NCBI GenBank assembly: GCA_009692155.1
Contig: SHZW01000001.1
Location: 124,001 to 188,000 of the forward strand
Direction: 5' to 3'
DNA length: 64,000 bases
Source: Nitrospiraceae bacterium
Lineage (GTDB): Bacteria; Nitrospirota; Nitrospiria; Nitrospirales; Nitrospiraceae
A model generated the notes under the pieces. It was not told the origin of the DNA. It searched no databases and saw nothing but the letters and a program-made list of their open reading frames with translations. Position numbers and translations under genes: made by a program. Below, piece after piece: positions 14,463 through 56,221 of this stretch (positions are counted from its first letter, which is position 1; every line of letters begins with the position of its first letter).

Positions 14463-15002
14463 TCACGCCTTCGCCAGATAATCACGAAGGGCCTGTGCCG
14501 TACTGGGGAAGGCCAGGTCGGCCCATGGGATTGCAGACGGTTCAAACATGCCCGTGTCAATCGTCTCATCGCCCGCTGCGAGCGCACCCCCGAGCACCTC
14601 GGCCGTGTAGACGATAATGATCACAGGGTGATCGGCGTAGGAATAGATATTCAGTAACCCTGTGAGCCGGACATCGAGATGGCTCTCCTCCCTGGTTTCG
14701 CGAATAGCCGCGTCCTCGACCCGCTCTCCCCGATCCACAAACCCGCCTGGGAACACCCATTTCCCATACGCCGGCTCGATACCGCGCTTGAGAAGAACAC
14801 AGCGGCCATCGAGCGAGATAATGGTCCCGACCGCCACTTTGGGATCGAGAAAAAAAACAAACCGGCAGGATTCGCAGACGAGTCGGTCCGGCTCGGACGC
14901 CTTGATCGCGCGGCGGACCAATCGGCCTCCGCACTTCGGACAAAAGGCATAGTTGCCCCTGATCCACTCCTCATGCGGTTCGATGAGAAACTTTGAGTCC
15001 AT
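14463..15002 (-). CDS. Nudix hydrolase with N-terminal zinc ribbon
   Basis: A 179-residue protein starting at the ATG at 15002 (MDSKFLIEPHEEWIRG); the longer frame upstream has no family-like sequence. An N-terminal CPKC...CESC zinc ribbon is followed by a Nudix fold with GGFVDRGERVEDAAIRETR, then EES, fitting the GX5EX7REUXEEXGU box. This layout resembles NudC-like and ADP-ribose pyrophosphatase-like enzymes acting on nucleoside diphosphate-linked substrates. The exact substrate is not visible. Confidence 0.88.
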   Translation of the reverse strand: MDSKFLIEPHEEWIRGNYAFCPKCGGRLVRRAIKASEPDRLVCESCRFVFFLDPKVAVGTIISLDGRCVLLKRGIEPAYGKWVFPGGFVDRGERVEDAAIRETREESHLDVRLTGLLNIYSYADHPVIIIVYTAEVLGGALAAGDETIDTGMFEPSAIPWADLAFPSTAQALRDYLAKA

Positions 15003-17091: not shown

Positions 17092-17247
17092 GGGGTTTTC
17101 TGGGGACGATAGTAAGCACGGAATTGCGCGAAAAACATGCGGAGACTGAGGGGTTTATCCGCCGGCTCAATAGCTTTAAAAAACCCTGAATAACCGGCGG
17201 CTCACACGGAGGTAAGAATCTAATCCTACTGGTGGAAAAGTACCACT

Positions 17248-17274
17248 CCGCCGCGATTTGATTGAACGCGGCGG
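17248..17274 (-). terminator. probable terminator of tRNA-Leu(CAA)
   Basis: A perfect 8-bp stem, CCGCCGCG with CGCGGCGG, around an 11-base loop sits about 20 bases past the tRNA 3' end. On the minus strand it is followed by AGTGGTACTTTTCC, a weak T run. The rest of 16981-17292 holds only the promoter and leader of the secreted-protein gene. Confidence 0.6.
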
Positions 17275-17292
17275 ATCAAGCGAAGCTTGGTA

Positions 17293-17379
17293 TGGTGCCC
17301 GGAGGGAGGATCGAACTCCCACTCTCTTGCGAGAACCAGATTTTGAGTCTGGCGCGTCTGCCAGTTCCGCCATCCGGGC
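17293..17379 (-). tRNA. tRNA-Leu (anticodon CAA)
   Basis: The minus strand folds as a class II tRNA. The acceptor GCCCGGA pairs with TCCGGGC, the D arm starts GGCGGAACTGGCAGACG, and the anticodon stem CCAGA/TCTGG encloses CTCAAAA with anticodon CAA. A long variable arm and GTTCGATCC in the T arm follow. The 3' CCA is encoded (17293-17295). The long variable arm and anticodon identify leucine. Confidence 0.96.
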
Positions 17380-53182: not shown

Positions 53183-53187
53183 ACCCG

Positions 53188-53344
53188 TTACATGCCTTCT
53201 TGACGAAGCTCTTTCATCACGAGGGCCTCCGCCTCGAGTGCGTCCCCGGATCTCATCCGGGAGCTCAAACGACTTCTGTTTGGGCCTGACGCTGGATCTG
53301 GACGAAGGGTTAGCGGCACGAGGCGATTTGGTTGGTTTTTTCAT
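53188..53344 (-). pseudogene. small basic protein gene with a single-base frameshift
   Basis: The ATG at 53344 follows GGAGG. The first 38 codons read KKPTKSPRAANPSS then FELPDEIR. Removing one G from the GGGG at 53244-53247 continues as DALEAEALVMKELRQEGM and stops at 53188-53190, giving 51 residues with a basic disordered N-terminus and an amphipathic helix. Without the correction the frame runs on into the DUF423 gene. The leader carries the element found also before the gene at 55688. Confidence 0.6.
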
Positions 53345-53350
53345 GGCAGC

Positions 53351-53419
53351 CCTCCATACCACACTTCGTGTGAGCCGCTCGCTCAGTATTGTCTTATCGA
53401 AATTGATGCGAGCGGAGAG
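53351..53419 (-). promoter_or_regulatory. structured 5' leader element, copy 1
   Basis: On the minus strand the order is CCGCTCGC, a variable loop of about 26 bases, GCGAGCGG (8-bp stem), then the hairpin CACAC-GAA-GTGTG, then GGTATGGAGG and the ATG at 53344. The same order with a different loop occurs at 56119-56188. It is either a shared regulatory RNA element or a dispersed repeat that supplies a ribosome binding site. Confidence 0.65.
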
Positions 53420-53516
53420 ACCCCTTTAGTGTATTCCTCTATGATCTGCTGTCGACTAAAATAGTCGGCCTGTCAGCCGAAGCTCGCCGAAGCGTTTCGC
53501 GGAGGCGGGCGAAGGC

Positions 53517-53605
53517 TGGTGCCGGAGCCCGGGATCGAACCGGGAGCCTCCTTGCGGAGGGAGGGATTTTAAGTCCCTTGCGTCTGCCAGTTCCGCCACT
53601 CCGGC
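53517..53605 (-). tRNA. tRNA-Leu (anticodon UAA)
   Basis: The minus strand folds as a class II tRNA. The acceptor is GCCGGAG with CTCCGGC, the D arm reads GGCGGAACTGGCAGACG, and the anticodon stem AGGGA/TCCCT encloses CTTAAAA with anticodon TAA. A long variable arm and GTTCGATCC follow. The 3' CCA is encoded at 53517-53519. Confidence 0.96.
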
Positions 53606-53623
53606 TCGACGATATCGCTGGTG

Positions 53624-53652
53624 ACTGTACACCCGCTCCCAAAGACGGTCAA
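53624..53652 (-). promoter_or_regulatory. promoter of tRNA-Leu(UAA)
   Basis: On the minus strand TTGACC (53647-53652) and TACAGT (53624-53629) are separated by 17 bases. The tRNA begins 19 bases downstream of the -10 box. Confidence 0.65.
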
Positions 53653-53662
53653 TAAGAACGCA

Positions 53663-53694
53663 AACGGCCTGCGTTCCTAAGAGCGCAGGCCGTT
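53663..53694 (-). terminator. hairpin terminator after the YtxH-like gene
   Basis: A perfect 11-bp stem, AACGGCCTGCG with CGCAGGCCGTT, around a 10-base loop lies about 27 bases past the stop at 53721. It is followed on the minus strand by TTTGCGTTCTTATT. It separates this gene from the tRNA promoter. Confidence 0.7.
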
Positions 53695-53720
53695 CACTGA
53701 TGAAGAAAACTGCGGGACGG

Positions 53721-53990
53721 TCAGACCGCGGTCAGACGCCGCATGTCTCTCTTCGCCAGCCAGGACTTCCCGGACTCGACCGCTTGGGTCAGACCGGCTT
53801 TGATGTCCCGACCATACCGCAGGGCCTGCACTTCAGCCCGCTTGGCATAGTGCCTGGAGTAGTGCTTAATCTTCCGGCGCGTCTCGACGCCGGACTGCGG
53901 TGCATACAGCAAACCCAGGGCCGCCCCGATGGCTGCGCCACCCACCACCAATCCAGCCACCTTCGCTGCATCTCGTCCTGCGTACGTCAT
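53721..53990 (-). CDS. YtxH-domain protein
   Basis: An 89-residue protein starting at the ATG at 53990, after AAGGAGG. A glycine-rich membrane segment (VAGLVVGGAAIGAALGLLYA) is followed by PQSGVETRRKIKHYSRHYAK, the usual YtxH layout of a short membrane anchor and a basic helical tail. Family members are linked to stress or gas-vesicle clusters, but the role is unknown. Confidence 0.85.
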   Translation of the reverse strand: MTYAGRDAAKVAGLVVGGAAIGAALGLLYAPQSGVETRRKIKHYSRHYAKRAEVQALRYGRDIKAGLTQAVESGKSWLAKRDMRRLTAV

Positions 53991-54273
53991 GGAAACCTCC
54001 TTGTTAATGACTGCCTGTTGAGTGTCTGTCTTGTGCATCCACTCTCTTCACTGCACTGTATCGCAGAATGCGTGCCACAAGATGATTCGAGAAGACTCGA
54101 TGAGAAAACAACGGGTTAGCAATGGTATGCGATCCTGGTAGGATATAACGGCCCTGTTCCATTTTCACAACAGAGTCACACTTGCCGTTTCAGAAACCAG
54201 ACAGAAGCAGACGTCGCTGCTACGGGCTTGCCAAACCGAGTCCTTGCGCCGTACTATGCCGCCACCGTTGCTT

Positions 54274-55080
54274 ATGATTTCACTGCTTCATTCCATTCCA
54301 TACCCCAATATTGATCCGATCTTCTTCCGGCTGGGTCCGCTGGCCTTCCGCTGGTACGGACTGATGTACTTGCTGGGGCTGACAGCGGCCTACTTTCTGA
54401 TCAAGAGCCGCGCCGCCGCCCGCCAGGTTGAACTCTCCAAAGACCAACTCTACGACCTGGTTGTCTATACGGCCTTCGGCGTGTTCCTGGGAGGCCGGCT
54501 CGGCTACACGCTGTTCTACAATTTCACATTCTACGTGGAGAACCCGCTGAAGATTTTTGCCGTCTGGGAAGGCGGGATGTCTTTCCACGGTGGCCTGCTG
54601 GGAGTCATCGTCGCGATCACCTGGTTCTGCCGCCGGCGGCGCCTGCCGGCGCTTCCTATCGGCGACCTGGCTGCTCTCAGCGCGCCGATCGGGCTGGGAT
54701 TGGGACGGCTCGGCAATTTCATCAACGGCGAACTCTACGGCCGCTCGACCGACGTGGACTGGTGCATGGTCTTTCCGACCGGCGGAGGCGAGTGCCGGCA
54801 TCCATCGCAATTATATGAAGCAGGACTGGAAGGCGTCGTGCTCTTCGGGGCGCTCTGGGCGATCAGCCTTCGACGGACCCCTCCCGGGACGATTTTCTGG
54901 AGCTTCATCACCGGCTATGGGCTGTGCCGGCTGATCGTGGAGTTTTTCCGCGAGCCCGACTACCACCTCGGCTATATTCTCGGCCCCTTTACAATGGGGC
55001 AACTCCTGAGTGCGCCGATGATCCTGCTGGGGGCGTTCATGGTAGCGTGGGGATATCAGCGGACGGCACGACAGAAGTAA
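54274..55080 (+). CDS. lgt: prolipoprotein diacylglyceryl transferase
   Basis: Inner-membrane enzyme that transfers diacylglycerol to the lipobox cysteine of prolipoproteins. Family motifs are FRWYGLMYLLGLTAAYFL, FGVFLGGRLGYTLFYN, GGMSFHGGLLGVIVA and RLGNFINGELYGRSTD. About seven membrane segments are visible. The ATG at 54274 (MISLLHSIPYPNIDPIFFRL) is chosen; ATG 54256 and TTG 54244 are alternatives. The gap 54039-54273 shows no gene. Confidence 0.95.
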   Translation: MISLLHSIPYPNIDPIFFRLGPLAFRWYGLMYLLGLTAAYFLIKSRAAARQVELSKDQLYDLVVYTAFGVFLGGRLGYTLFYNFTFYVENPLKIFAVWEGGMSFHGGLLGVIVAITWFCRRRRLPALPIGDLAALSAPIGLGLGRLGNFINGELYGRSTDVDWCMVFPTGGGECRHPSQLYEAGLEGVVLFGALWAISLRRTPPGTIFWSFITGYGLCRLIVEFFREPDYHLGYILGPFTMGQLLSAPMILLGAFMVAWGYQRTARQK

Positions 55081-55082
55081 CC

Positions 55083-55176
55083 AAAGGACAACGGGCCTAG
55101 CCCTGTGCTCCCGGAGCGCGCACGATCAGAATGTGCTCGCTCGACGGCCGCAGTTGGGCTAGGCCCGCCGTCCTTT
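55083..55176. repeat. long inverted repeat with internal hairpins (possible structured RNA)
   Basis: AAAGGAC-AA-CGGGCCTAGCCC (55083-55103) is mirrored at 55156-55176 (GGGCTAGGCCC-GC-CGTCCTTT-like order), pairing 19 of 21 positions. The 52 bases between contain GTGC/GCAC with a nested GCTC/GAGC, and CTCGC-type repeats. It begins 2 bases after the lgt stop. It would fold into a multi-branched RNA in the lgt 3' region. Confidence 0.65.
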
Positions 55177-55194
55177 GTAAAGTTTGGGATGGAC

Positions 55195-55235
55195 GGGGCG
55201 ACCGGTCGCTGGCAAACCGGTCGCCCCGTTTCGTT
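55195..55235 (+). terminator. terminator-like hairpin after lgt
   Basis: A perfect 12-bp stem, GGGGCGACCGGT (55195-55206) with ACCGGTCGCCCC (55216-55227), has a 9-base loop and is followed by GTTTCGTT. It lies about 115 bases past the lgt stop, after the long inverted repeat. Confidence 0.65.
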
Positions 55236-55263
55236 CAGCGGGATTTCCTACGCTTCACGATCT

Positions 55264-55653
55264 TCAATACGGCATTTCGTCGTCATCGAGACCAAAATGG
55301 TGACCGATTTCATGCGCCACCGTATCCTGAACTTCCTGAATGACTTCGTCTTTCGTCCGGCAGAGCCGCAAGATCGGCCCGCGATAAATGATCACCCGGG
55401 CCGGCAGGTGGCCGGCCGGATCGAAAAACGACTCCTCCCCTTTTGCGGTCCCGGTATATAAGCCCAGAAGATCATCTTCCGATTCCAACTCCATTTCATC
55501 GAGCACTTCGCGTGACGGCTCTTCTTCGACGACGACGGCGATATTATCCAGAGGGCGGCGGTAAGAAGACGGCAGGCGCCGAACGGCCTGCCGCACAAGC
55601 ACCTCGAATTCTTCCGGGCTTACTGAAAGTGTGCGTACGCGACGACGGGCCAT
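55264..55653 (-). CDS. zincin-like metallopeptidase family protein
   Basis: A 129-residue protein of the Pfam zincin-like family (PF06262). The signature HEIGHHFGLDDDEMPY near the C-terminus supplies the two zinc histidines, the catalytic Glu and a downstream Asp. The N-terminal SPEEFEVLVRQAVRRLPSSY and VVVEEEPS are typical. The substrate is unknown. It is minus-strand and convergent with lgt. Confidence 0.9.
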   Translation of the reverse strand: MARRRVRTLSVSPEEFEVLVRQAVRRLPSSYRRPLDNIAVVVEEEPSREVLDEMELESEDDLLGLYTGTAKGEESFFDPAGHLPARVIIYRGPILRLCRTKDEVIQEVQDTVAHEIGHHFGLDDDEMPY

Positions 55654-55687
55654 GTGCCTGGTCGCTTTAGCAGAGAAGTGGCATAGC

Positions 55688-56113
55688 CTAATGCTGCCCG
55701 GGGGAAAAGAAATCTCCGGATTTGGGACTGGCCATCACATCGCCATGCTGACGGAGCGCCGGCGAAGACCAGATGATTTTATTGCCGGGAGCCAGATTCG
55801 CCGCCTCGACGAAATGCTTGCGCGCTTCCTTGTCATTACGGAGCACGTCGTAGACCAATCCAAGATTGTAATGCGCTTCCGCCAGGGTCGGTTGCGCCTG
55901 GATGGCCGTTTCGTACTGCGCCTTGGCAGCCTCCCATTGGCGCGCATAGAACAGTTTGTTGCCCTCTTCAATCGCCGCTGCCGCCGCCGGAACCGACTTG
56001 GGCGGCGCGGACAGCGCGATTTCGTGAGTACTCAGGCCTTCGCCTCCGGCACAGCTTCCGAGCGCGAATCCGACCATGCCGATCACGACTGCCAGTACGC
56101 TTCTGTGAATCAT
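55688..56113 (-). CDS. TPR lipoprotein
   Basis: A 141-residue lipoprotein from the ATG at 56113 after GGAGG. The lipobox is LGSC with Cys21. Residues about 45-110 form two TPR units (AAIEEGNKLFYARQWEAAKA, AEAHYNLGLVYDVLRNDKEA). It is probably anchored in the envelope as a binding scaffold; its lipidation would need the nearby Lgt. Its leader carries the element described at 56119-56188. Confidence 0.85.
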   Translation of the reverse strand: MIHRSVLAVVIGMVGFALGSCAGGEGLSTHEIALSAPPKSVPAAAAAIEEGNKLFYARQWEAAKAQYETAIQAQPTLAEAHYNLGLVYDVLRNDKEARKHFVEAANLAPGNKIIWSSPALRQHGDVMASPKSGDFFSPGQH

Positions 56114-56118
56114 GCCTT

Positions 56119-56188
56119 CCTCCATATCACACTTCGGGTGAGTCGCTCGCTCTTCATCGATTTATCATACATTGATGCGAGCAGAGAG
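56119..56188 (-). promoter_or_regulatory. structured 5' leader element, copy 2
   Basis: On the minus strand TGCTCGC, a variable loop, GCGAGCGA, then CACCCGAAGTGTG and ATATGGAGG lead to the ATG at 56113. It matches copy 1 (53351-53419) in order, spacing and most bases, while the loop differs. Confidence 0.65.
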
Positions 56189-56221
56189 CGTCTGCGACCC
56201 ACCTGTTGCTATTCGAGTTCC

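Follow-up and report, generated by a model that had tools for sequence, protein, structure and literature searches.

Two gene leaders in a 64,000-nucleotide stretch of Nitrospiraceae bacterium DNA (assembly GCA_009692155.1, contig SHZW01000001.1, positions 124,001 to 188,000 of the forward strand; hereafter the window, at its full length) are attributed to a mobile, target-selective family of small non-coding repeats, a reading to which we assign a probability of roughly 0.78. Multiple copies at unrelated loci, together with occupied and empty orthologous sites, mark the family as a mobile repeat. It is previously uncatalogued and confined to the Nitrospira family.

Two leaders with a common architecture

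A first-pass annotation of the window had described matching leaders ahead of a gene for a small basic protein and a tetratricopeptide repeat (TPR) lipoprotein gene. Both leaders are confirmed at the stated places on the minus strand, each running up to a Shine–Dalgarno (SD) sequence. They had been framed as a single feature spanning 53351–56188; the copies are separate insertions, and the genes behind them are unrelated. Their parts are given below, where A5 denotes an alignment of 41 copies and R2 the covariance model described in the next section; both copies are, directly or via orthologs, part of R2's own alignment, which bears on the R2 scores listed for them.

53356–53434, minus strand: copy 1, loop type A, its end (..GTGTGGTAT) abutting the SD of the DUF2934-derived open reading frame (ORF); R2 89.9 bits, E = 1.5e-23
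53408–53415, minus strand: copy 1, stem 1, 5′ arm CCGCTCGC (A5 columns 20–27)
53375–53382, minus strand: copy 1, stem 1, 3′ arm GCGAGCGG (A5 columns 54–61)
53359–53373, minus strand: copy 1, terminal hairpin H2, TCACAC-GAA-GTGTGG, loop GAA (A5 columns 63–77)
53351–53355, minus strand: SD GGAGG of the target gene behind copy 1, outside the repeat
53342–53344, minus strand: ATG of the small basic ORF, which is the N-terminal part of a damaged DUF2934 gene and reads in frame into DUF423
56124–56203, minus strand: copy 2, ahead of the TPR lipoprotein gene; R2 61.6 bits, E = 1.7e-15
56177–56184, minus strand: copy 2, stem 1, 5′ arm CTGCTCGC (A5 row 2)
56143–56150, minus strand: copy 2, stem 1, 3′ arm GCGAGCGA (A5 row 2)
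56127–56141, minus strand: copy 2, terminal hairpin H2, loop GAA, stem with one mismatch (A5 row 2 and R2 alignment)
56119–56123, minus strand: SD GGAGG of the TPR lipoprotein gene (from the sequence)

Common to the two leaders are a pair of hairpins, a conserved loop and the bases leading up to the SD; their mean column identity is 84% when the loop is counted in. Exact matches of CGAAGTGTG in the window are limited to the two leader sites. Folded as single sequences, leaders 1 and 2 surpass their shuffled versions only to a moderate degree (z = −2.7 and −2.2, respectively); in the predicted fold of leader 1 the segment CUCUCC pairs with the SD, whereas the predicted fold of leader 2 has no such pairing. 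As the z-scores are moderate and the folds unlike, the leader pair alone decided nothing.

A dispersed repeat family

A covariance model built from four sequences with the SD included (R1) matched 66 of 148 relatives, many times per genome. Because R1 contained the SD, its list of matches was biased to TGG/GGAGG, and the model was therefore rebuilt before targets were counted. The resulting R2, from 41 copies, ends at GGTWT and contains no SD or tRNA sequence. By R2, at least 31 copies are found in the genome that holds the window (G000), and at least 131 in the complete relative genome G013. When applied at E values up to 1e-5 to a phylum-wide sample, R2 was positive in 43 of the 47 genomes of the same family (the total, 43 positive plus four without a match, being read from table order) and in 0 of 151 Nitrospirota genomes outside the family. 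A scan of public genomes listed records that are Nitrospirota or Nitrospira by title, N. moscoviensis among them, and one titled only “bacterium”.

A search of the window and six copy-rich loci against Rfam 15 gave no match above the gathering score other than tRNA. Exact patterns were too strict, recovering the two window copies only, plus chance matches in relatives. No published description of the repeat family was found in a search that did not extend to subscription papers and preprints, so that an earlier mention is possible; in the RepRanger paper (PMC12306157) N. moscoviensis appears in a table only.

Structure and covariation

A unit measures about 78–100 bp and consists of a purine-rich left end, a long stem round a conserved loop, and a terminal GAA-loop hairpin ending in YGGTWT. 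Position by position over 154 copies, conservation extends leftwards from the stem for about 23 bases; on the right its limit is GGTWT, apart from a following GG. Covariation was examined for 14 pairs in 41 distinct copies, against shuffles and slid registers. Standard pairs filled 96.3% of cells, compared to 78.4% in the shuffles, and 96 cells were changed on both sides as against 31.6; sliding the partner by 1–3 columns made pairing fall to about 33%. Within A5, the stem 1 helix is paired at 98.8% and the terminal hairpin helix H2 at 93.1%. Stem 1 occurs in many forms (CCGCTCGC, CCGGCGGC, CCGCGCGC, CCGCAGGC and others), the complement being nearly always present, and the core C-GAA-G of the terminal hairpin is retained in nearly all copies. 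The earlier description of constant stems around a variable loop holds only in part: pairing is kept by compensation, whereas stem sequence varies across the family, and the loop is itself partly conserved (ATCAAT..GATAA). By eye, three loop types can be told apart, namely A (ATCAATTACGATAAAGCGATGAAGAG), B with an inner GGGCTTCGCCC hairpin, and the short C (ATTTGATCGAA). There is some signal for a possible third hairpin at the left end (CACTTGAGGTG, GCCTACTGGAGGC), too unclear for a claim.

Placement at SD sequences and tRNA ends

Placement was assessed with ARAGORN and an ORF check for the R2 loci of G013 and G000, which comprise 67 terminal units, i.e. units with no further unit behind them. 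Thirty-one of these adjoin the start of an ORF, and in most of them the repeat is followed immediately by GGAGG. Another 17 of 67 were called antisense at the 3′ (CCA) end of a tRNA or transfer-messenger RNA (tmRNA), nearly always at the same base, and two of 67 sit at the 5′ end of tRNA-Ser, a gene whose first bases are GGAGG. The remaining 17 of 67 lie elsewhere, several of them at tRNA-like sequences uncalled by ARAGORN. The same register was found in other species when ARAGORN was run on 49 loci. Assuming some 50 tRNA genes per genome, a random position would fall on a given base of a tRNA end about once per hundred thousand trials, so the placement at tRNA ends is not a matter of chance. 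The check proposed at the outset, a covariance model searched across Nitrospirota, thus returned co-varying stems and non-random placement; the expectation that hits sit just before start codons, however, is not borne out for the large share at tRNA and tmRNA 3′ ends.

In a second count GGAGG followed directly after 19 of 45 terminal units but after 0 of 14 internal array units. As GGAGG trails terminal units only, the SD belongs to the target gene and not to the repeat.

R2 detects four copies in the window. Besides the two leaders these are a tandem pair at 17140–17293, outside the coordinates first described:

17229–17293, plus strand: copy 3, of the short-loop type C, which ends directly against the CCA of tRNA-Leu(caa); R2 32.0 bits, E = 4e-07
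17140–17215, plus strand: copy 4, type A, decayed, the distal unit of the tandem pair; R2 24.7 bits, E = 4.8e-05
17293–17379, minus strand: tRNA-Leu(caa), target of copies 3 and 4 (ARAGORN)

Orthologous loci and unit gain

Comparison with relatives shows that the small basic ORF at 53344 corresponds to the N-terminal part of a DUF2934 gene, whose 74-residue product (PF11154, E = 1.3e-9) is complete in G001, a relative of the same genus. In the window, the gene (53184–53344, minus strand) carries an internal deletion and a frameshift, and its N-terminus now runs in frame into DUF423; an intact DUF2934 match is lacking in G000. The supposed gene for a small basic protein is thus a damaged DUF2934 gene. 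Leader 1 is kept in two relatives, G001 and G007 (loci L038 and L039), i.e. in three genomes counting G000. Conversely, leader 2 is missing where G001 and G007 carry their orthologs of the TPR lipoprotein gene (L008 and L009); its arrival in this lineage is therefore the simplest account. In these repeat-free orthologs the gene lies close behind the preceding ORF, and its SD is rich in G (GGGGGGAATGACATG in the same-genus relative). A G-rich SD that is already there without the repeat, together with the count of terminal and internal units above, shows that the repeat is not a donor of ribosome binding sites.

Arrays in G013 are built of head-to-tail units with periods of 92–99 bp, in which stems can differ within one array; in the clearest of them, identical units lie at the target end. 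Unit gain can be followed at two loci. At the same SD, G002 has one unit (L101) and G000 two (L203), with the extra type C unit adjoining the SD. At a tRNA-Ala, one unit (L262) compares with two (L259), and the extra unit lies beside the tRNA. In both cases the sequence of the older unit breaks off in the GAA loop of the terminal hairpin or directly behind it. Base pairs still present in the G002 unit are missing from its ortholog, the distal, older unit of G000. Mobile copies thus retain their pairing, which can decay where a copy stays at one locus; the comparison, albeit of few loci, speaks for a stem structure needed for movement rather than by the host.

One array of identical units (L127, about 14680–14780, G004:C18) contains some 100 N, which probably mark either a gap that the repeat caused in the assembly or a masked stretch.

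Proposed mechanism and alternative explanations

We propose that copies spread by transposition in trans. The enzyme would recognise a folded single strand, specifically a C-GAA-G DNA mini-hairpin, and each new copy would join at the same target, so that older units are pushed away. Loops of the d(GCGAAGC) GNA type form unusually stable DNA mini-hairpins, which would favour single-stranded DNA as the active form. Taken by itself, movement as folded single-strand DNA is put forward tentatively, at somewhat under even odds. In mRNA leaders the repeat would be a passenger of the 5′ untranslated region (UTR), and any effect on translation would be incidental.

Several observations weigh against a target-selective mobile repeat of this kind. 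An autonomous copy or a transposase was not found, including in a search of G013 for incomplete right ends. Neither a target-site duplication nor an exact left boundary could be fixed, the boundary varying between arrays, and in several arrays the newer unit begins inside the hairpin loop of the older one, which simple cut-and-join fails to explain. The three identical neighbouring units of L175 could reflect local duplication rather than insertion. Finally, copies cluster at tRNA ends and SDs more sharply than would be expected from a GGNGG motif by itself. What the G013 search turned up instead of a transposase was another, longer repeat, a few hundred bases in length and dispersed over that genome, which contains AGCCCGCATTATTCATGAACG and carries a type C copy inside (L324, L325, L328–L343).

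A bolder version of the same idea, which we regard as doubtful, is that the family represents a mobile element of a new class. Its unit would be folded single-stranded DNA without genes, integrated by a recombinase at places where the DNA could pair with the ribosome's anti-SD or with the 3′ end of a stable RNA. Its sites would be the CCA ends of tRNA and tmRNA, SDs, and the GGAGG starts of tRNA-Ser, and its arrays would be polar and integron-like, made of gene-less units joined through the hairpin loop of the previous unit.

The placement data bear most directly on a cis-regulatory RNA family, i.e. a riboswitch, thermometer or protein-binding leader that hides or exposes the SD. Copies directly 5′ of SDs, compensated stems, the predicted pairing of CUCUCC with the SD in leader 1 and the retention of this leader in three genomes all agree with such a function. 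However, at least a quarter of the terminal copies (at least 17 of 67) are antisense at tRNA or tmRNA 3′ ends, where a cis-regulatory leader would be senseless. Furthermore, leader 2 folds differently, the genes behind the two leaders are unrelated, pairing has been lost in an old copy at a fixed locus (the L203 distal unit as compared to L101), copies occur in tandem and nested, and Rfam provides no match. We consider this explanation improbable. The first-pass annotation had left the choice between a regulatory RNA and a repeat; of these, the repeat is correct. A regulatory function is unsupported, and the leaders fold unlike one another round the SD. An element that benefits the host at tRNA 3′ ends and gene starts, e.g. 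in RNA processing, and spreads by recombination would fit the extreme strictness of placement. Still, its presence at a given tRNA or gene varies between close relatives, and copy number extends from none detected to at least 131 within one family, which makes a host benefit quite improbable.

It is unlikely that the repeat is carried by a mover already known in these genomes, either a repetitive extragenic palindromic (REP)-associated tyrosine transposase (RAYT, a Y1 transposase) or an integron integrase acting on attC-like sites. The family is palindromic and of high copy number, with a DNA hairpin, a target kept on one flank and head-to-tail arrays, and Y1 genes are somewhat commoner in copy-rich genomes. 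Yet no Y1_Tnp (PF01797) is present in G000, G001 or G020, the last being 100% complete, and the 28 Y1 loci have one clear copy within about 400 bp and one weak match. The integron integrase (TIGR02249) exceeded the cut-off in only G013 and G032 of 23 genomes, G032 being without R1 matches, and the conserved ends of 154 copies contain no GTTRRRY/RYYYAAC core. The integron integrase genes of G013 are two in number (G013:C1:2948499 and 4636485). Retroposition, in which reverse transcription of an RNA copy proceeds from RNA 3′ termini (the CCA of a tRNA, or that of 16S on an SD), would bring all three target types under one mechanism: the CCA of tRNA and tmRNA, the SD, and the GGAGG with which tRNA-Ser starts. 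However, RVT_1 (PF00078) was found in one of 13 copy-bearing genomes tested, G013, and there is no model for joining the SD cases to genomic DNA; we hold this route to be highly improbable. Y1 transposase, integron integrase and reverse transcriptase are thus unsupported as movers by the data on gene absence and distance. Singly, the absences are weak, because assemblies are incomplete and copies may be fossils of a lost gene, but jointly they argue against all three.

Relation to known repeats

In kind, the family is a REP-, MITE- or MIRU-like repeat that lacks the defining features of REP/RAYT or attC systems. REP sequences and bacterial interspersed mosaic elements (BIMEs), as well as REP doublets forming hairpins (REPINs) with RAYT (TnpA-REP), are likewise short, palindromic and extragenic, number tens to hundreds per genome, form hairpins and are non-autonomous. 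The present family differs by two unlike hairpins per unit, arrays that are head-to-tail instead of alternating, SDs and tRNA 3′ ends as targets, and several copy-rich genomes without a Y1 transposase. Mycobacterial interspersed repetitive units (MIRUs) are dispersed units of roughly 50–100 bp that form tandem head-to-tail arrays beside gene starts. Compared by organisation alone, they are alike in unit size, dispersal and arrays, whereas the family described here belongs to an unrelated taxon, has strong stem compensation and occupies many tRNA and tmRNA end sites. Miniature inverted-repeat transposable elements (MITEs) are also small, non-coding and presumably moved in trans as here; in our family, however, neither terminal inverted repeats nor target duplication were seen, and no parent insertion sequence was found. 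Integron attC arrays resemble it in a structure kept as sequence drifts, the newest unit at a fixed site and a single orientation. In contrast to them, the repeat has no core boxes, uses many independent sites and carries no cassette genes between units, and the integrase is lacking in most genomes here.

Small repeats are common in bacteria; what is unusual is the base-pair-precise choice of SDs and tRNA/tmRNA CCA ends, both of which are linked to translation. The repeat rewrites 5′ UTRs and tRNA trailers across the family, including the nitrite oxidisers of the genus Nitrospira, and its resemblance to a regulatory RNA makes it a trap for annotation.

At 53445–53520 of the window, the 3′ flank of a tRNA-Leu(taa) ends in GGCGAAGGCTGG at the tRNA and is perhaps a decayed copy; the same tRNA-Leu(taa) in G001 has a clear copy (L097, 1338–1406).

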